From assembly GCA_012523465.1 (NCBI GenBank), contig JAAYIK010000005.1:62001-126000 (forward strand): 64,000 nucleotides of DNA, in the 5' to 3' direction. Made by a program: the position numbers and the translations under genes. This document shows, one piece after another, positions 24,089-43,344 of the stretch. The DNA is from Lysobacteraceae bacterium (GTDB taxonomy: Bacteria > Pseudomonadota > Gammaproteobacteria > Nitrococcales > AK92). The notes under the pieces are model-generated. The model was not told the DNA's origin and searched no databases. It saw only the letters and a list, made by a program, of their open reading frames with translations. Within the stretch, counting starts at the first letter, position 1, and each line of letters starts with the position of its first letter.

Positions 24089-24625
24089 TTAAAATTCCTG
24101 TGCTTGCAATGACCTGACGAAGCCAGGCAGCAGCGCCCGGAGACGCTCCAGGGCATGTGCCACGGTCTGCCGCCGCACCGCCTCGCGATCGCCTGGGAAG
24201 CGCACGGTCTCGACCACCGTTTCGCTGCCGCGAGCGCTCCAGGCGAAGCAGACGGTGCCCACCGGCTTGTCGGCGCTGCCGCCACCCGGCCCGGCGATAC
24301 CGCTGACGGCCACTGCCACCTCGGCTGTCGAGCGTCGCAGGGCGCCTTCGGCCATCTGCCGGACCACCGGCTCGCTGACCGCGCCGAACTCGGCCAACGT
24401 CTCTGCCGCGACACCGAGTTCATCCTGCTTGGCGGCGTTGGAATACGTGACGAAGCCGCGGTCGAACCAGGCCGAGCTGCCGGCGATGTCGGTCACGGCC
24501 TTGGCGATCCAGCCGCCGGTGCACGACTCGGCCAGGGCAAGCCGCAGCCCGACCAAGCCGAGGCACTGGCCGACCTCGGCCGCCAGCGCCGTCAGCGCGG
24601 CATCATCTATCTGTACGCGTTTCAT
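24089..24625 (-). CDS. pncC: nicotinamide-nucleotide amidohydrolase (CinA C-terminal domain)
   Basis: A 178-residue stand-alone CinA C-terminal domain. PncC deamidates NMN to nicotinic acid mononucleotide, salvaging the pyridine product of NAD-dependent DNA ligase. The signatures are Ala-Glu-Ser-Cys-Thr-Gly-Gly (residues 30-36) and Gly-Ile-Ala-Gly-Pro-Gly-Gly-Gly (near 107). The N-terminal CinA domain is absent, as in many gammaproteobacteria. It is divergent from mutS with a 54-base gap and is followed on its strand by thpR and recA. Confidence 0.93.
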
Positions 24626-24679
24626 CGTCCCTCACACGCTAGAATAGGCGACCTTCGCCAACCCAAAAATTCGAGACCT

Positions 24680-27244
24680 ATGTCAGCACCACAAGCAGAT
24701 CTCAGCCAGCACACACCGATGATGCAGCAATATTTGCGCATCAAGGCCGAGCATCCCGACGTGCTGCTGTTCTATCGCATGGGCGATTTCTACGAGCTGT
24801 TTTACGACGACGCCAAGCGCGCCGCCAAGCTGCTCGACATCACCCTCACCAACCGCGGGCAGTCGGCGGGCCAGCCCATACCCATGGCTGGCGTCCCCTT
24901 CCATGCGGTCGAAAGCTATCTGGCCAAGCTGGTGCGCATGGGCGAATCGGTGGCGATCTGCGAGCAAATCGGCGACCCGGCCGCCAGCAGGGGCCCGGTC
25001 GAGCGCAAGGTGGTGCGCATCGTCACCCCCGGCACGCTGACCGACGAGGCGCTGCTGGACGAGCGGCGCAGCAACCTGCTGGTGGCCATCAGCGGGGCCG
25101 GGCAGCGCTACGGCCTAGCCTCGCTGGAACTCTCCAGCGGCCGCTTCGGCATCAGCGAGCTGGACGGCGTGGATGCCCTGCTTGCGGAGATCGAGCGGCT
25201 GCAGCCGGCGGAGATTCTGGTTAGCGACGATAGCAAGCTGCCGCCGGAGCTGAAACAGCGCACCGGCCTCACCCGCCGGCCGCCCTGGCACTTTGAGACC
25301 GACGCCTGCGAGCGCCTGCTCTGCCGCCACTTCGGCACCCGCGACCTAAGCGGCTTCGGCTGCGCCGAGATGAAGCTGACCATCCAGGCCGCCGGCAGCT
25401 TGTTGCAGTACGCCCTGGAGACCCAGCGCTCCGAGCTACCGCACATCCGCGGCATCAGCATCGAGCATCGGGACCAGGCCATCGCCATCGACGCCGCCAG
25501 CCGCCGCAACCTGGAAATCGAGGTCAATCTCAGCGGCGGCAGCGAGCATACCCTGGCCTGGGTGCTGGACACCGCCCGCACGCCCATGGGCAGCCGCTTG
25601 CTGCGGCGCTGGCTGAACCGGCCGCTGCGCGATCGTGCCGAGATCAACGCCCGCCTCGATGCCGTCACCCTGCTGCTGGAAACCCAGGCCTACCACGGCC
25701 TGCGCGATTGCCTGCACGGCATGGGCGACGTCGAGCGCATCCTGGCCCGCGTGGCGCTGCGCTCGGCCCGCCCGCGCGATCTGGTGGCCCTGCGTGAGGC
25801 GCTAGGTCGCCTACCGGAGCTGCAGCGCCAGCTGGCCGAGCTGGACACAGGGTTGCTGCGCCAGCTTGCTGCCGACATCGGTCAGCACCCTGAGACGCAC
25901 GCTCTGCTCCAGCGCGCCCTGGTGGACAACCCGCCCATGCTGGTGCGCGACGGCGGCGTCATCGCTGAGGGCTTCGACGCCGAGCTGGACGAGCTGCGCA
26001 CGCTGGCCAGCGACGCCGGCGACTTCCTGCTCAAGCTGGAGCAGCAAGAGCGGGAGCTCTCCGGCATCCCCACCCTCAAGGTGGGCTACAACCGCGTCCA
26101 CGGCTACTACATCGAGGTCACCAAGGCGCAGGCCAAGCACGCCCCGCAGCACTGGATACGCCGCCAGACCCTGAAAGGAACCGAGCGCTACATCACGCCG
26201 GAGCTCAAGGCCTTCGAGGACAAGGTGCTGAGCGCCCGGGAGCGTTCGCTGGCGCGGGAGCGCGAGCTGTACGAGCAGCTGCTGGACACCCTCAATGAGC
26301 AGCTGGGCCCGCTGCAGTTGTGCGCCCAGGCCCTGGCCGTGCTGGACGTGCTCGCCACCTTCGCCGAGCGCGCCGAGGCGCTGAACTACCAGCGCCCCGA
26401 GCTCACCGACGAACCCGGCCTGAGCATCCGCGGCGGGCGCCATCCGGTGGTCGAGCGGGTACTGGAGACGCCCTTCGTGCCCAACGACGTGGAGCTGACC
26501 GACAGCACCCGCATGCTCATCATCACCGGCCCCAACATGGGCGGTAAGTCCACCTTTATGCGCCAGACCGCGCTGATCACCCTGCTGGCTCACGTTGGCA
26601 GCTATGTGCCGGCAGACTCCGCCCGCATCGGGCCCATCGACCGTATCTTCACCCGCATCGGTGCCTCCGACGACCTCGCCGGGGGGCGCTCCACCTTCAT
26701 GGTGGAGATGACGGAAACCGCCAACATCCTCAACAACGCCACCCGCAACAGCCTGGTCCTGCTAGACGAGATCGGCCGCGGCACCAGCACCTTCGACGGT
26801 CTGGCCCTGGCGTGGGCCACCGCCGCCCACCTGGCCGGCAAGCTGGAGGCCTTCACCCTGTTCGCCACCCACTACTTCGAGCTGACCAGCCTGCCGGACG
26901 AATTTCCCAGTATTAGCAACGTTCATTTGGACGCGGTGGAACATGACGATAAAATCGTCTTCTTGTACGCACTCAAGGCCGGGCCGGCCAGCCGCAGCTA
27001 TGGCCTTCAGGTCGCGGCCCTCGCCGGCGTCCCGGACACTGTGATCCAGGCCGCGCGCCGCAAGCTGTCCGAGCTGGAGCGCAGCAGCACGAACAGCCGC
27101 CAGCAAGCAGATCAGCTGCCCCTCTTCGTCGACAGCGAGCCCGATCCCGCGCTGGATTATCTGGACACGCTGGACCCGGATTCGCTGAGCCCGCGCCAAG
27201 CGCTAGACGCCCTCTACGAGCTGAAGCGCCTGCGCAGCGGTTGA
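24680..27244 (+). CDS. mutS: DNA mismatch repair protein MutS
   Basis: An 854-residue MutS, which recognises mismatches and starts methyl-directed or MutL-led repair. The mismatch-reading Phe-Tyr-Glu of domain I lies in Gly-Asp-Phe-Tyr-Glu-Leu-Phe near residue 38. The Walker A motif Gly-Pro-Asn-Met-Gly-Gly-Lys-Ser begins at G617 and is followed by Asp-Glu-Ile-Gly-Arg-Gly-Thr-Ser (Walker B/signature) near 693 and a Thr-His-Tyr switch near 730. The open frame continues 525 bases upstream, antisense to pncC; the ATG at 24680 gives the family N-terminus. fdxA follows after 62 bases, as in pseudomonads. Confidence 0.98.
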
Positions 27245-31470: not shown

Positions 31471-33030
31471 ATGACGTCCCCAGTCCGTGGCAGACCCTAT
31501 GCCTCTATTTTCGCTTTCCGGGCCGGCGTGTTCGACCTGGATGGCGTAATCACCCGCACTGCCGCACTGCATGCCGCCGCCTGGAAGCGGCTGTTCGACG
31601 ACTTTCTGCACCGGCGCGCCGCGCGCACGGGCACTCCCTTCCGCCCCTTCAGCAACGAAGACTACCGCCGCCATGTCGATGGCAAGCCCCGTCGCGACGG
31701 CGTGCGCGACTTTCTCGCCGCCCGCGGCATCGCTCTGCCGGAAGGCACTCCGGACGACCCGCCCGAGCAGGAGACGATCCACGGCCTCGGCGCCGCCAAG
31801 AACGCCCTTTTCCGTCAGCTGCTGGCCACGCAAGGCGTGGAGATCCACACCAGCTCGGTCACGCTCATCCACAAATTGCGCCGTGCCGGCCTCAGGACCG
31901 CCCTGGTCTCCTCCAGCAAGAACGCCGCGGCCGTGCTGGCTGCCGCCGGCCTCACCGAGCTGTTCGACGTCCGCGTCGACGGCGTCGAGGCTGCCCGGCT
32001 GGGGCTCGCCGGCAAGCCGGCACCGGACATCTTCCGCCATGCCGCTGCCGAGCTCCGGGTGGACCCGGCCGACGCCTTCGCGGTAGAGGATGCGCTGTCC
32101 GGGGTGGCCGCCGCCCGTGCCGCCGGCTACGGCCTGGTGATCGGCGTGGACCGCGCCGGTCAGGCCGCCGCCCTGCGCGAGCACGGCGCCGACGTGGTGG
32201 TGCCAGATCTCGCCGCCCTGCCCTTCGGCAGCGCGCCGCTGCCGGATGCGCTGGAGCGCTTTGCCGACATCGCGCGGCTACTGGCCGGCCGCCGCCCGGC
32301 CCTGTTCCTCGATTACGACGGCACCTTGACGCCTATCGTGGAGCGGCCCGAGCTCGCCGTGCTCGACGACGGCATGCGCGCCGCCCTGCGCGAGCTGGCC
32401 GCGCTCTGTCCGCTTGCCATCGTCAGCGGCCGCGACCGGGCCGACGTGGCGCGGCTGGTCGGCATCGACTCCCTGGTCTACGCCGGCAGTCACGGCTTCG
32501 ACATCGCCGGCCCCGACGGCCTGCGCCTGCAGCATGCCGAAGCCGCCGACTATCTGCCCGCCCTGGACCGCGCCGAGGCCTGGCTGCGCGCGCGTCTGGC
32601 CAGCATTCCCGGCGCCCTGGTGGAGCGCAAGCGCTACGCCATCGCCGTCCACTACCGGCTGGTGGCTGACGCTCAGGCGGCGGATGTCGAGGCGGTCGTG
32701 GACGCCGCCCTGGCAGAAGCGCCCGAGCAGCTGCGCAAAACCGGCGGCAAGAAGGTCTTTGAGCTTAGGGTGCGCTTGCCCTGGGACAAGGGCCATGCCG
32801 TGGACTGGTTGCTGGCGACCTTGCGGCTGGAGCGCCCGGATGTGCTGCCCATGTATCTCGGCGACGACGAAACCGACGAGGACGCCTTTCTCGCCCTGCG
32901 CCGGCGTGGCGGGCTCGGCATCCTGGTCGCGGCGGAGCCGGCGCTGCGCAGCGCGGCCCACTATCGCCTTGTCGACCCGGCCGCGGCCGGCCGCTTTCTG
33001 GGCATGCTGACGGAGTTGCTGCGGCCATGA
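31471..33030 (+). CDS. fused beta-phosphoglucomutase-like / trehalose-6-phosphate phosphatase
   Basis: A 519-residue protein with two HAD-type domains. Residues 15-245 form a beta-phosphoglucomutase-like domain with the nucleophile motif Phe-Asp-Leu-Asp-Gly (D22, D24). Residues 272-515 are a trehalose-phosphatase (OtsB) domain with Leu-Asp-Tyr-Asp-Gly-Thr (D281, D283), Ser-Gly-Arg-Asp near 327 and Gly-Asp-Asp-Glu-Thr-Asp-Glu near 467. Predicted activities are beta-glucose-1-phosphate to glucose-6-phosphate, and trehalose-6-phosphate to trehalose. The stop overlaps the start of the GH65 gene by four bases (ATGA), implying coupled translation. This reproduces as two genes the domain order of the mycobacterial OtsB1 protein. 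No trehalose-6-phosphate synthase is nearby. Confidence 0.9.
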   Translation: MTSPVRGRPYASIFAFRAGVFDLDGVITRTAALHAAAWKRLFDDFLHRRAARTGTPFRPFSNEDYRRHVDGKPRRDGVRDFLAARGIALPEGTPDDPPEQETIHGLGAAKNALFRQLLATQGVEIHTSSVTLIHKLRRAGLRTALVSSSKNAAAVLAAAGLTELFDVRVDGVEAARLGLAGKPAPDIFRHAAAELRVDPADAFAVEDALSGVAAARAAGYGLVIGVDRAGQAAALREHGADVVVPDLAALPFGSAPLPDALERFADIARLLAGRRPALFLDYDGTLTPIVERPELAVLDDGMRAALRELAALCPLAIVSGRDRADVARLVGIDSLVYAGSHGFDIAGPDGLRLQHAEAADYLPALDRAEAWLRARLASIPGALVERKRYAIAVHYRLVADAQAADVEAVVDAALAEAPEQLRKTGGKKVFELRVRLPWDKGHAVDWLLATLRLERPDVLPMYLGDDETDEDAFLALRRRGGLGILVAAEPALRSAAHYRLVDPAAAGRFLGMLTELLRP

Positions 33031-35474
33031 CCGGTGACGAATGGACCTTGCGCTACGACGGCTTCGACCCAGCCAGGGAGGGGCTACGCGAGGCGCTTTG
33101 CACGCTCGGCAACGGCTACTTCGCCACCCGCGGCGCCGGCGAGGAATCGGAGGCCGACGAGATCCACTATCCCGGCACCTATCTGGCCGGCGGCTACAAC
33201 CGTCTCAAGACCCACACCGCCGGCCGCACCATCGAGAACGAAGACCTGGTCAACATGCCCAACTGGCTGTGCCTCAACTTCCGCCCCGAGGACGGCGACT
33301 GGTTCAACCCGCTGGGCATGGAGCTGCTCGCCTACTGCCAGGAGCTCGACCTGCGGGCCGGCCTGCTGCGCCGGCAGATCCGCTTCCGCGATCGCCAGGG
33401 CCGGGAAACCCTGCTCGTCACCCGCCGCCTGGTCCACATGGGCAACCCGCACGTGGCGGCCATCGCCTGGACGCTGACCGCGCTCAACTGGTCCGGCACC
33501 ATCCACGTCCGCTCAGCGCTGGACGGCCGCGTCATCAACGCCGGCGTGCCGCGCTACCGGCAGCTGGCCAGCACCCATTTGACGCCGCTGGAAACCCGTC
33601 AGCTCGACGAGGACTCCATTCTGCTGGAGGTAGAAACCAACCAGTCGCGCCTGCGGGTGGCTGAGGCGGCCCGCACCCAGGTCTTTCGCGGCAGCGACCG
33701 GCTCGCGCCGGAGTGCCACCCGCTGGAGGAGACCGGCTACGTCTGCAAGGAGCTGCGCTTCGCCCTCACCCAGGGCGAGCCGGTGACGATAGAGAAGGTC
33801 GTGGCGCTCTACAGCGGACGGGATCACGCCATCTCGGAGCCGGCGCTGGCGGCGGAGCAGACCGTGCGGGACGCGCCGCGCTTCGAGCGGCTCGAGGCCA
33901 GTCACACCATGCGCTGGTCGCACCTGTGGCGCCGCTGCGACGTAGTACTGGAAGGCGACGTCCGTACCCAAATGATCCTACGCCTGCACATCTTCCACCT
34001 GCTGCAGACGGTCTCTCCACACAGCGACGACCTCGACGTCGGAGTGCCGGCCCGCGGTCTGCATGGCGAGGCCTACCGTGGCCACGTGTTCTGGGACGAG
34101 CTGTTCATCTTCCCGTTCCTCAACTGGCGCATCCCTGAGATCACCCGCAGCCTGCTGCGCTACCGCTTCCGCCGCCTCAATGCCGCCCGCCGGCTGGCGC
34201 ACGCGCGTGGCCTGCGCGGTGCCCTCTATCCCTGGCAGAGCGGCAGCGATGGCCGCGAGGAGACCCAGCAGCTCCACCTCAACCCCAAGTCGGGGCGCTG
34301 GCTGCCGGACAACACCCATCTGCAGTGGCACGTCAATTCCGCCATCGCCTACAACGTCTGGCGCTACTACCAGACCACCGGCGACCGCGAATTCCTGTCC
34401 TTCTACGGGGCCGAGATGCTGTTCGAGATCGCCCGCTTCTGGGCCAGCGCCGCGCGCTGGAACCCGGAGCGCCAGCGCTACGACATCTGCGGCGTCATGG
34501 GCCCGGACGAGTTCCACGACCAGTATCCCTGGCGCGACACGCCCGGCCTGGACAACAACACCTACACCAACGTCATGGCCGCCTGGGTATTGCAGCGGGC
34601 GCTAGAGACCCGGGATCTCATCGGCCGCAACCGCCGCGCCGAGCTGTGCGAACGGCTGGCGCTGGGCCAAGAGGAGTTCGCGCTCTGGGACGACGTCAGC
34701 CACCAGCTCTACATCTCCTTCCACGACGGCATCCCCAGCCAGTTCGAGGGCTACGAGCGGCTGGAGGAGCTGGACTGGGAGGGTTATCGGCGCAAGTACG
34801 GCGACATCCATCGGCTGGACCGCATCCTCGAGGCCGAGGGCGATAGCGTCAACCGCTATAAGGCTTCCAAGCAGGCCGACGTGCTCATGCTGCTCTACCT
34901 GTTCTCCATCGAAGAGCTGCGCCTCCTGTCCCGGCAGCTCAGCTATCCGGTCGACGAACACATGCTCCGGCGCACCATCGACTACTACCTGCAGCGCACC
35001 TCCCACGGCTCCACCTTAAGCAAGGTGGTTCACTCCTGGGTGCTGGCGCGCTCCGACCGGCCGCATTCGTGGGACGTGCTGAAGGAAGCGCTGGAGAGCG
35101 ACATCTCCGATGTCCAGGGCGGCACCACCCCAGAAGGCATCCACCTCGGCGCCATGGCGGGCACGGTCAATTTCGTCCAGGAAGCGCAGACCGGCTTCGA
35201 AATCCGCGATGGCACCTTGCGCATCAACCCCTGCCTGCCGGAACCCCTGCAGCGGCTGTGCCTGCGGCTGCGCTACCGCGGCCACTGGCTGGACCTCGAC
35301 TTCAACCGCGACAGCATGACCATCGCCGCGCCCGGCGGCTGGGCGGGGCCGCAGCAGCTGCTGGTGGGCAACCAGCGTTACCCATTCGGCCCGGGCCAAT
35401 CGTTGAAGATCCCCTGCACCCGCATCAATGGCGCCCGCCGCGCCGCCAGCGCCCCGTCCGGGGAGAGCGGCTGA
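33027..35474 (+). CDS. glycoside hydrolase family 65 phosphorylase (trehalose/maltose type)
   Basis: An 815-residue family GH65 enzyme. After an N-terminal beta-sandwich (about 1-270) comes the (alpha/alpha)6 barrel with the general-acid motif Gly-Pro-Asp-Glu-Phe-His-Asp, catalytic E495, followed by Asp-Asn-Asn-Thr-Tyr-Thr-Asn. A Lys-Gln-Ala-Asp-Val-Leu segment near 616 and Gly-Ser-Thr-Leu-Ser near 664 fit the phosphate-binding site, suggesting a phosphorylase rather than a hydrolase. Products would be beta-glucose-1-phosphate and glucose, the former fed to the mutase domain next door. Trehalose is the likely substrate by context; maltose, kojibiose or nigerose remain possible. It overlaps the preceding gene by four bases and the next by one. 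Confidence 0.9.
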   Translation: MTGDEWTLRYDGFDPAREGLREALCTLGNGYFATRGAGEESEADEIHYPGTYLAGGYNRLKTHTAGRTIENEDLVNMPNWLCLNFRPEDGDWFNPLGMELLAYCQELDLRAGLLRRQIRFRDRQGRETLLVTRRLVHMGNPHVAAIAWTLTALNWSGTIHVRSALDGRVINAGVPRYRQLASTHLTPLETRQLDEDSILLEVETNQSRLRVAEAARTQVFRGSDRLAPECHPLEETGYVCKELRFALTQGEPVTIEKVVALYSGRDHAISEPALAAEQTVRDAPRFERLEASHTMRWSHLWRRCDVVLEGDVRTQMILRLHIFHLLQTVSPHSDDLDVGVPARGLHGEAYRGHVFWDELFIFPFLNWRIPEITRSLLRYRFRRLNAARRLAHARGLRGALYPWQSGSDGREETQQLHLNPKSGRWLPDNTHLQWHVNSAIAYNVWRYYQTTGDREFLSFYGAEMLFEIARFWASAARWNPERQRYDICGVMGPDEFHDQYPWRDTPGLDNNTYTNVMAAWVLQRALETRDLIGRNRRAELCERLALGQEEFALWDDVSHQLYISFHDGIPSQFEGYERLEELDWEGYRRKYGDIHRLDRILEAEGDSVNRYKASKQADVLMLLYLFSIEELRLLSRQLSYPVDEHMLRRTIDYYLQRTSHGSTLSKVVHSWVLARSDRPHSWDVLKEALESDISDVQGGTTPEGIHLGAMAGTVNFVQEAQTGFEIRDGTLRINPCLPEPLQRLCLRLRYRGHWLDLDFNRDSMTIAAPGGWAGPQQLLVGNQRYPFGPGQSLKIPCTRINGARRAASAPSGESG

Positions 35475-35638
35475 TGGCCGGCTCCACCGTCACCGCCTTC
35501 GCCCTGCTCGTCGCCGGCCTCATCATGCTCACGGGCGGCTTTGTCATGCGAGCGGGCAAGGCCGGCGTCTACGTCATGCTCATCGGCATCGTGCTGGTGC
35601 TGGCCGGGGTCGCCTACTACATCCTAGTGGTCATCTGA
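35474..35638 (+). CDS. 54-residue membrane protein at the end of the trehalose operon
   Basis: A small protein with two hydrophobic helices (about residues 7-24 and 32-53) joined by a short basic turn (Arg-Ala-Gly-Lys-Ala-Gly). Its ATG overlaps the GH65 stop codon (TGATG), strong evidence that it is translated with the operon. I recognise no family. Base use matches its neighbours. It ends seven bases before the convergent yhhJ stop. A membrane anchor or regulator of the trehalose enzymes is possible but unsupported. Confidence 0.75.
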   Translation: MAGSTVTAFALLVAGLIMLTGGFVMRAGKAGVYVMLIGIVLVLAGVAYYILVVI

Positions 35639-40599: not shown

Positions 40600-43344
40600 T
40601 CAGCGCGCCGCCGCCGTGGCCATGCCCGCTCCCCGGCCGAGGCGCCGAACCACGGCCTTCTCCAGCTCGGCGCCGAGGAACACCAGCAGCCCTGCCCCCA
40701 GTACCTTCAGCCACTGTAGCGGGGTCAGGCCGGCCGAACCGAAGATGGCCTGCATGGTGGGCGAGTAGGTGTAAAGCAGCTGCAGCGGGATGCAGCAGGC
40801 CATGGTCAGCGGGACGTAGTAGTTGCCGAACAGCCCCTTCCAGCTCAGCACCGAGTCGTAGATGTAGCGACTGTTGAGCAGATAGAAGGCTTCGCAGGCC
40901 ACCACCGCGTTGACCGCCATGGTACGCGCCACGGCAAGCTCGGCGCCCGACTCCAGCTCCCAGAGGAAGACGCCCAGCGCACCGATCATGAACAGCGCCG
41001 ACACCAGGCAGACGCGCCAGACGAAGAAGCCGGACAGCAGCTTCTCTTCCGGCGGCCGTGGTGGGCGCAGCATGATGCCGTGCTCGGCCGGCTCGAAGGC
41101 CAGCGCCAGCCCCAGCGTGGACGACGTCACCATGTTGACCCACAGCACCTGGGCCGGGGTCAACGGCAAGGTCAGCCCGAAGGCGATGGCGGCCAGCACC
41201 ACCAGCGACTCGCCGCCGTTGGTGGGCAGCATGAACAGGATGAATTTCTTCAGGTTGTCGTAGACGGTCCGCCCCTGGCGCACCGCCTCGGCGATGGTGG
41301 CGAAGTTGTCGTCGGCCAGCACCATGTCGGCCGCCTCCTTGGCGGCGTCCGTGCCCTTTAGCCCCATCGCCACGCCGACGTCGGCACGCTTGAGCGCGGG
41401 CGCGTCGTTGACACCGTCGCCGGTCATGGCCACCACCTGCCCGACGTCCTGCAGTGCCTGCACCAGCCGCAGCTTGTGCTCGGGACTGGCGCGGGCGAAG
41501 ACGTCGATCTCCATGGCCACGCGCCGCAGCTCAGCGTCGCTCATCAGCGCGATCTCGGCGCCGGTCAGGGCTGGCCTGCCGACACCGATGCCGAGCTGGG
41601 CCCCGATGGCCCGGGCGGTCTCGACATGATCGCCGGTGATCATCTTGACCCGGATGCCGGCCCGATGGCAGTCGCGCACCGCCTCGATGGCCTCCGTGCG
41701 CGGCGGATCGACGATGCCGAACAGGGCCAGCATGGTGTAGCCCGTCTCGACATCGGCAAGGTCCAGATGCAGCCCGCGGGGCGCCGTCCGCTTGCAGGCG
41801 ATGGCCAGCGTGCGCAGCCCATGGGCTCCGGTGTCGTTGGCCATGCGCCGCCAGTAGTCAACGTCCAGCGGCGCTGCGCCGGCATCGGTCAGCTGCTGCG
41901 AGCACATGTCGAGGATGCGCTCGGGCGCTCCCTTGACGAAGATCCACGGCTCGCCGTGGACGCTGCAGTGCTGGGTGGCCATGAAGCGGTGCTCGGAAGC
42001 GAAGGGGATGGAGTCGAGGCGCGGCAGCTCCTGGACCAACGCCGCACGGTGCAGTCCCGCCTTGGCGGCCAGGACCAGCAGGGCGCCTTCGGTGGGGGCA
42101 CCTTCCACCCACCACTGACCGTCCTCCATGCGCAGCTGGGAGTCGTTGCACAGCGCCCCACCCCGGATCGCCAGCCACAGCGCTGGTAAGCGCTGCGGAT
42201 CGATCTCCCGTCCCTCGCTGCTGAAGCTGCCTTCCGGCTCGTAGCCAACGCCGGCGACCTGCACCACCCGGTCAGCCGTCACCAGGCGCTGAACGGTCAT
42301 CTCGTTGCGGGTCAGGGTGCCGGTCTTGTCCGAGCAGATCACCGTCACCGAGCCCAGCGTCTCCACCGCCGGCAGCCGGCGCACGATGGCGTTGCGACGC
42401 GCCATGCGCTGCACGCCCAGCGCCAGCGTGATGGTCATGATGGCCGGCAGCCCTTCGGGAATGGCCGAGGCCACCAGTGCCACCGCCATCATGAACATGT
42501 CGGCCGCCGGCAGGCCGCGTCCCCAGGTCCCGAACGCGAAAATGAAAACGGCGAAGGCGAGAATAGCCACCGCCAGCCAGCGGCCGAAATGATCGATCTG
42601 CTGCAGCAGCGGCGTCTTGGTGCTGGGCAGTGCGACCAGCATGGCGTTGATCTTGCCCAGCTCCGTCTCGGCGCCGGTCGCCACCACCACGCCACGCGCC
42701 TGGCCGCCGATCACCAGCGTGCCAGAATAGGCCATGTTGAAGCGGTCGCCTAACGGAGCGTCCGGCGCAACCGGCGCGATGTCCTTCTCCACCGCCAGCG
42801 ACTCGCCGGTGAGCGCTGCCTCGTCGATGCGCAGATCGCGGACAGCGATCAAGCGCAGGTCGGCCGGCACCCTGTCGCCAGCGGCAAGCAACACCAAGTC
42901 GCCCGGAACCAACTCGGCGGCGTCGATCTCCTGCCGCCGGCCATCGCGGATCACCGTGGCATGCGGCGAGAGCATCCGGCGGATGGCCTCCAACGCGGCC
43001 TCCGCCTTGCCTTCCTGGATGAAGCCGATGATGACGTTGACGATGACCGCGCCCAGCAGCACGGCAGTGTCTATCCACTCGCCTAGGGCCGCCGTCACCG
43101 CGGCCGCCGCCAGCATGATGTACAACAAGGTATTGTGGAACTGCTGCAGGAAGCGCAGCAGCGGCCCGCGCCGCCTGGGCGGGGCCAGCCGATTGGGGCC
43201 ATGCTGCTCCAGCCTGGCCCGGACCTCCCCTGCGTCCAGTCCGCCCGGCCCGGTGCCCAGCGCCCGTTCGACCTCGGCACCGCTCCGGGCGTGCCAGGCC
43301 GGCGACGCGGGTTGCGGTTCTTGTTTTGCCAAGCCAGTCCTCAT
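40600..43344 (-). CDS. cation-transporting P-type ATPase (P2 class)
   Basis: A 914-residue inner-membrane pump with an N-terminal cation-ATPase domain, actuator motif Thr-Gly-Glu-Ser near residue 182, M4 motif Pro-Glu-Gly-Leu-Pro near 293, phosphorylation site Asp-Lys-Thr-Gly-Thr at D339, and hinge Thr-Gly-Asp-Gly-Val-Asn-Asp-Ala-Pro near 605. About ten membrane helices. The layout is that of P2A calcium pumps, but M6 reads Val-Asn-Met-Val-Thr-Ser-Ser-Thr-Leu-Gly, with Ser where calcium pumps have Asp. The ion is therefore uncertain (calcium, sodium, potassium or other). It starts five bases after the alcohol dehydrogenase stop, so the two are probably co-transcribed. Confidence 0.9.
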   Translation of the reverse strand: MRTGLAKQEPQPASPAWHARSGAEVERALGTGPGGLDAGEVRARLEQHGPNRLAPPRRRGPLLRFLQQFHNTLLYIMLAAAAVTAALGEWIDTAVLLGAVIVNVIIGFIQEGKAEAALEAIRRMLSPHATVIRDGRRQEIDAAELVPGDLVLLAAGDRVPADLRLIAVRDLRIDEAALTGESLAVEKDIAPVAPDAPLGDRFNMAYSGTLVIGGQARGVVVATGAETELGKINAMLVALPSTKTPLLQQIDHFGRWLAVAILAFAVFIFAFGTWGRGLPAADMFMMAVALVASAIPEGLPAIMTITLALGVQRMARRNAIVRRLPAVETLGSVTVICSDKTGTLTRNEMTVQRLVTADRVVQVAGVGYEPEGSFSSEGREIDPQRLPALWLAIRGGALCNDSQLRMEDGQWWVEGAPTEGALLVLAAKAGLHRAALVQELPRLDSIPFASEHRFMATQHCSVHGEPWIFVKGAPERILDMCSQQLTDAGAAPLDVDYWRRMANDTGAHGLRTLAIACKRTAPRGLHLDLADVETGYTMLALFGIVDPPRTEAIEAVRDCHRAGIRVKMITGDHVETARAIGAQLGIGVGRPALTGAEIALMSDAELRRVAMEIDVFARASPEHKLRLVQALQDVGQVVAMTGDGVNDAPALKRADVGVAMGLKGTDAAKEAADMVLADDNFATIAEAVRQGRTVYDNLKKFILFMLPTNGGESLVVLAAIAFGLTLPLTPAQVLWVNMVTSSTLGLALAFEPAEHGIMLRPPRPPEEKLLSGFFVWRVCLVSALFMIGALGVFLWELESGAELAVARTMAVNAVVACEAFYLLNSRYIYDSVLSWKGLFGNYYVPLTMACCIPLQLLYTYSPTMQAIFGSAGLTPLQWLKVLGAGLLVFLGAELEKAVVRRLGRGAGMATAAAR

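Follow-up and report, generated by a model that had tools for sequence, protein, structure and literature searches.

A two-gene beta-phosphoglucomutase, trehalose-phosphatase and GH65 module predicted to act on trehalose 6-phosphate in a Lysobacteraceae genome

Genes at the locus and their predicted enzymes

The window, by which we mean the whole stretch of 64,000 nucleotides that was analyzed, carries three consecutive open reading frames (ORFs) on its forward strand (Table 1). The first encodes a beta-phosphoglucomutase (beta-PGM) domain followed by a trehalose-phosphatase (TPP) domain, the second a GH65 protein and the third a small two-helix protein. On recheck, the lengths, coordinates and overlaps that the original prediction gave for these ORFs of 519, 815 and 54 residues all held. 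Its further claim, that the three domains of OtsB1 occur here in the OtsB1 order and in tightly coupled genes, was confirmed by domain models and by a survey of other genomes (below).

Table 1. Coordinates of the features of the locus within the window
Feature	Position	Strand	Basis or remark
beta-PGM-TPP fusion gene, 519 aa	31471..33030	+	ORF list, domain models
beta-PGM domain, residues ~16-250	31516..32220	+	FDLDGV catalytic motif and VED motif; PDB 8h5s, 3e-64
TPP domain, residues ~273-514	32287..33012	+	DYDGT and GDDETDE motifs; apparently the genome's only intact TPP
ATGA overlap, likely translational coupling	33027..33030	+	4-nt overlap between fusion gene and GH65 gene
GH65 gene, 815 aa, predicted trehalose-6-phosphate (T6P) phosphorylase	33027..35474	+	
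Fingerprint D73 (CsKP 64)	33243..33245	+	pairwise and MAFFT alignments
R383, candidate 6-phosphate ligand	34173..34175	+	inference
Fingerprint Q404, G406, Q414 (CsKP 392, 394, 402)	34236..34268	+	pairwise and MAFFT alignments
Fingerprint D428 (CsKP 416)	34308..34310	+	pairwise alignment; MAFFT puts 416 at W425
W434	34326..34328	+	R in 99/104 relatives
General acid E495 (GPDE motif)	34509..34511	+	sequence
R596, candidate 6-phosphate ligand	34812-34814	+	inference
Fingerprint E604 (CsKP 585)	34836..34838	+	pairwise and MAFFT alignments
Phosphate-site K615	34869..34871	+	alignment
Phosphate-site S662 T663	35010-35015	+	Thr replaces second Ser, as in 9lb6
Phosphate-site H706	35142-35144	+	alignment
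Two-helix ORF, 54 aa	35474..35638	+	start overlaps GH65 stop by one base (TGATG)

The beta-PGM domain passes the PGMB-YQAB subfamily model TIGR02009 (residues 17-220, 161.8 bits, cut-off 153.35), and the protein of its best solved relative, 8h5s, is named beta-phosphoglucomutase. The strict beta-PGM equivalog TIGR01990 is not passed (102.6 against 189.4 bits), which counts against the explanation that we prefer. The TPP domain passes the T6PP equivalog TIGR00685 (residues 273-514, 171 bits, cut-off 68), and the Pfam model Trehalose_PPase (PF02358), also searched genome-wide, matches the fusion protein at 4e-50. The equivalog model and the DxDGT and GDDxTDE motifs predict a T6P phosphatase. In the window proteins the catalytic motifs of the TPP, beta-PGM and GH65 domains are all intact.

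The GH65 protein contains the N, m and C domains of the family (PF03636, PF03632 and PF03633) above the Pfam cut-offs (1e-69, 2e-134 and 6e-13). It has the residues of a phosphorylase rather than a hydrolase, namely a general acid Glu and a phosphate site of Lys, His and two Ser, the second being Thr here. According to De Beul et al. 2021 (PMC8537180), GH65 enzymes can be sorted by specificity at six positions, which we number by CsKP as 64, 392, 394, 402, 416 and 585. In a phmmer alignment to the kojibiose phosphorylase 3wiq, the window protein reads DQGQDE at these positions (D73, Q404, G406, Q414, D428 and E604); CsKP 416 sits in a variable-length loop and is alignment-dependent, and the other five positions are the same in both alignments used. 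CaGP, a DQGQDE enzyme of GH65 subgroup 22, gave T6P from beta-glucose-1-phosphate and glucose 6-phosphate (G6P) when assayed (PMC8537180). Because the window protein has this fingerprint, T6P is its predicted substrate, and we infer that it is very probably a T6P phosphorylase (EC 2.4.1.216). The enzymes of that class in subgroup 22 (Lactococcus lactis, Ca. Kuenenia and Caldithrix abyssi CaGP) share with it DQGQDE as well as the catalytic Glu and the phosphate-site residues. The original prediction had considered trehalose, maltose and kojibiose as substrates, and by the alignment and the published fingerprint T6P is likelier than any of them. Trehalose, maltose and kojibiose phosphorylases are disfavored because their motifs (TRIGPP, KV[MF]NES and EEAPxx, respectively; PMC8537180) differ from the window reading. 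Other GH65 proteins in the same class have an EEAP-like reading and form a separate cluster.

The predicted structure of the GH65 protein (mean pLDDT 87.8) matches 9lb6 of Weissella ceti best (Z 48.0), followed by kojibiose phosphorylase (44.6). 9lb6 carries the same fingerprint, and we count against our explanation that this solved structure bears contradictory depositor names. The entries 9lb6 and 9lb7 are labeled T6P hydrolase or phosphatase although their sequence is that of a GH65 protein; the label is probably wrong, because the sequence fits a T6P phosphorylase. R383 and R596 occupy positions where all 104 clade members, and 9lb6 as well, have a basic residue, unlike at least nine of ten other GH65s, so they may bind the 6-phosphate of the substrate. 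W434, in place of an almost invariant Arg, calls for caution and also counts against our explanation.

The genome's only GT20 gene (otsA) lies on contig C1, away from the locus, in agreement with the earlier statement that no otsA is adjacent and that T6P comes from elsewhere. TreS, TreY and TreZ are also present. The PF02358 search found two places in the genome, the window fusion and a TPP beside otsA. The latter ORF (L001:819-1466, minus strand, contig C1 of G000) is shortened, ends before the GDDxTDE motif and has DYDTA in place of DxDGT and SRL in place of SGR. This otsA-side TPP looks decayed, so the window fusion would carry the only intact copy. A genome of the same genus (G369) shows the reverse, with an intact TPP beside otsA and none in the beta-PGM gene. 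The pair points to reciprocal TPP loss within one genus, with G369 being only 78% complete.

One could argue that the TPP domain acts on some other sugar phosphate, so that a TPP without OtsA need not mean T6P synthesis. HAD phosphatases are promiscuous, which would favor this reading. Moreover, OtsB1 of Mycobacterium tuberculosis (1327 aa), a protein of unknown function whose deletion has no obvious phenotype, is reported to lack TPP activity (PMC11046441). However, the window fusion passes a curated T6PP equivalog model with all catalytic motifs present, its TPP domain is encoded next to the predicted T6P-producing enzyme, and the equivalent TPP in the same genus sits beside otsA instead. 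We therefore regard another substrate as quite improbable.

Layouts, neighbors and relation to OtsB1

Scanning genome contigs with a GH65 alignment confirmed at least 586 relatives, the best 80 of which span many phyla. These 80 and six relatives from the class made up a layout set of 86 loci. Nearly all relatives surveyed have the fingerprint D-Q-[GA]-Q-D-E. The commonest layout, found in many phyla, is that of the window, with beta-PGM-TPP and GH65 as two genes (44 of 86 loci, among the best 80 and the six). Twelve loci have beta-PGM-GH65 chains without a TPP, nine have three separate genes and seven have three-domain chains; the remainder are incomplete or truncated at a contig end. This survey of split and fused forms, which had been suggested together with the original prediction, found the genes together in most loci and no broad separation. 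Where GH65 is a gene of its own (54 loci), 19 loci have an overlap of exactly 4 nt, and in 45 the genes overlap or are at most 20 nt apart. As dozens of loci that lie far apart phylogenetically share this domain order and coupling, their occurrence in the window locus is not due to chance.

The original prediction had left it between a chain that was split and one that was never fused. A FastTree tree requires seven changes between fusion and separation of GH65, and it groups the window copy with unfused copies from Modicisalibacter, Aquibium and alphaproteobacterial plasmids (Indioceanicola and Croceicoccus). Because the two-gene form is the majority, fusions arose repeatedly and the window copy falls inside split lineages, it is more likely that the window lineage was never fused. 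Recent splitting of a fused ancestor is disfavored, the nearest copies all being unfused.

The module or its beta-PGM-GH65 form also occurs on large, partly conjugative alphaproteobacterial plasmids (L155, L156 and L160), and the copies L155 and L156 are close in sequence to that of the window. Plasmid carriage suggests that the module is mobile. Elsewhere (L041:1377-3041, minus strand), a beta-PGM-TPP fusion 50-56% identical to that of the window lies near an EEAP (kojibiose-like) GH65 and not near a T6P phosphorylase.

OtsB1 (Rv2006) shares with the window locus its three domains and their order, and the total lengths are nearly equal (519 + 815 = 1334 residues in the window against 1327), but it joins beta-PGM, TPP and GH65 in one chain where the window has two ORFs. 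Our comparison was drawn from actinobacterial OtsB1-like fusions and Rhodococcus plasmids, in place of the Rv2006 sequence. Fourteen actinobacterial loci, of which 11 encode three-domain chains, keep the catalytic residues of GH65, with a fingerprint of DQGQDE, SQGQDE or a P variant; the three-domain relatives fit [DS]QG[QP]DE. Four three-domain chains (L195, L197, L201 and L206) lack the nucleophile-bearing end of beta-PGM, and one of them, L197, also lacks the nucleophile of its TPP; the window proteins retain all of these. Since GH65 is the most constant part of these fusions, we predict T6P phosphorylase activity for the GH65 domain of OtsB1.

The 54-residue protein had been proposed to tether a complex to the membrane. 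No comparable small ORF follows GH65 in six gammaproteobacterial relatives. In G369, a homolog 51% identical is a separate gene 1.6 kb from GH65, after a PfkB kinase and an OsmC-like ORF (recognized by eye), and adjoins an ABC transporter that also follows the small protein in the window. From these comparisons, the ORF is a real gene of the ABC-transporter neighborhood and outside the trehalose module; membrane tethering is therefore without support, and we rejected it as the protein is not conserved with the module. Tethering belonged to a broader idea, in which a trehalose, maltose or kojibiose phosphorylase channels beta-glucose-1-phosphate to the mutase within a membrane-bound complex. 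Gene coupling and recurrent fusion are compatible with a complex, but the specificity residues are unlike the motifs of all three phosphorylases and the small protein does not travel with the module, which makes this idea highly unlikely.

Downstream of the module, the window contains HlyD, ABC-2 and P-type ATPase genes. HlyD-ABC-ABC2 recur beside the module in L049 and L105, and an ABC-2 gene in L148. In 16 of 103 loci, a homolog of the P-type cation ATPase (40600-43344, minus strand) lies no more than ~6 kb away from the module; PfkB recurs beside the module in 12 of 103. Some plasmid copies adjoin annotated universal stress proteins, a DosR/DosS-like regulator pair, phosphoketolase or polyphosphate kinase 2. 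These surroundings fit a stress or low-energy setting, and they do not fix the direction of the pathway. Upstream in the window, a MutS ORF (24155-27244, plus strand) has ~185 residues before the MutS_I domain, which may reflect a misplaced start or an additional domain.

Source of trehalose 6-phosphate and direction of the pathway

In the pathway that we propose, the GH65 protein would act as an inverting phosphorylase (T6P + Pi <-> beta-glucose-1-phosphate + G6P), the beta-PGM domain would interconvert beta-glucose-1-phosphate and G6P, and the TPP domain would irreversibly hydrolyze T6P to trehalose. The sum would be 2 G6P -> trehalose + 2 Pi, with neither a nucleotide sugar nor otsA. Like the OtsA-OtsB pathway, this route would have T6P as its intermediate and a TPP to finish it; it would differ in using beta-glucose-1-phosphate and G6P instead of a nucleotide sugar and OtsA. 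In the window organism, the fusion would also have to finish the T6P made by OtsA, and the phosphorylase would link the T6P pool to G6P. The equilibrium of beta-PGM favors G6P, which we count against the synthetic direction.

OtsA (GT20) is absent from 16 of 64 module genomes (most do have it), though the 16 include several drafts or MAGs, whose gaps weaken single cases, and the genomes are not independent samples. Examples include G242 (estimated completeness 100%, 2 contigs), G372 (99%), G004 (97%) and Kineobactrum sediminis. Fourteen of the 16 have exactly one TPP, and it is located in the module. The two OtsA-less genomes whose module lacks a TPP have no TPP at all. Among the 369 genomes sampled from the class, a TPP without OtsA was found in three of seven genomes with the module and in two of 44 without it (Fisher p 0.015, ignoring relatedness); the latter two are one weak match and one genome that is 75% complete. 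Import of T6P by a PTS was rejected, as no EIIC was found in 17 genomes tested, OtsA-less module genomes included. As a TPP is kept in the absence of both OtsA and a PTS, the phosphorylase running in reverse would be the simplest source of T6P in these genomes. This retention is seen in 14 relatives, whereas the window genome itself has OtsA.

Two chains of beta-PGM and GH65 (L105 in G433 and L116 in G439) occur in genomes with neither OtsA nor any TPP. The proposed pathway does not explain a phosphorylase without a TPP in these genomes, and we count them against it. No shared phosphatase was found beside TPP-less beta-PGM-GH65 fusions, the HAD-IIB neighbor in Nitrobacter being absent from the other loci.

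In vitro, the T6P phosphorylase of L. lactis gives a 93% yield of T6P, in a step called nearly irreversible (PMC13121652). Its own pathway degrades T6P, whereas the enzyme predicted in the window is coupled to TPP and beta-PGM. An in vitro system that makes T6P from maltose through maltose phosphorylase, T6P phosphorylase and beta-PGM (Taguchi 2020, as cited in PMC13121652) resembles our proposal in that T6P phosphorylase works towards synthesis alongside beta-PGM; as described there, it differs in being engineered, taking maltose as glucosyl source and having no TPP step.

The module may instead salvage T6P: OtsA would make T6P, the module would remove the excess by phosphorolysis, giving two equivalents of G6P, TPP would serve as an alternative outlet to trehalose, and the net direction would be catabolic, as in Lactococcus. 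Reviews describe T6P phosphorylase as degradative only, and it is absent from the trehalose biosynthesis routes listed (PMC12125463, PMC3518184). Salvage would also suit the otsA genes directly after the module in L097, L113 and L095, glycolytic neighbors such as PfkB and glucokinase (the latter in five loci), and the phosphoketolase and acetate kinase beside the module in Nitrobacter. However, it offers no source of T6P in the genomes that lack OtsA and PTS and still keep the module TPP. On balance we consider salvage rather unlikely.

We lean towards the view that the gene pair is a T6P unit able to make trehalose from G6P, with the synthetic direction favored. That this direction, which we infer from gene content, is the main role of TPP-containing modules is somewhat better than an even call, and we think that it was also their ancestral use. 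More tentatively, and at somewhat less than even confidence, beta-PGM, T6P phosphorylase and TPP may constitute a natural trehalose route, free of both OtsA and nucleotide sugars and widespread across phyla, with OtsB1 as its fused descendant. Among open-access papers, we found no natural biosynthetic route through T6P phosphorylase.

For OtsB1, the question of function would come down to whether its GH65 domain acts as a T6P phosphorylase. If the module is synthetic, it would be a new trehalose route that saves one nucleotide triphosphate per trehalose, which would be useful under energy limitation, and it would account for the many genomes that keep a TPP without OtsA.
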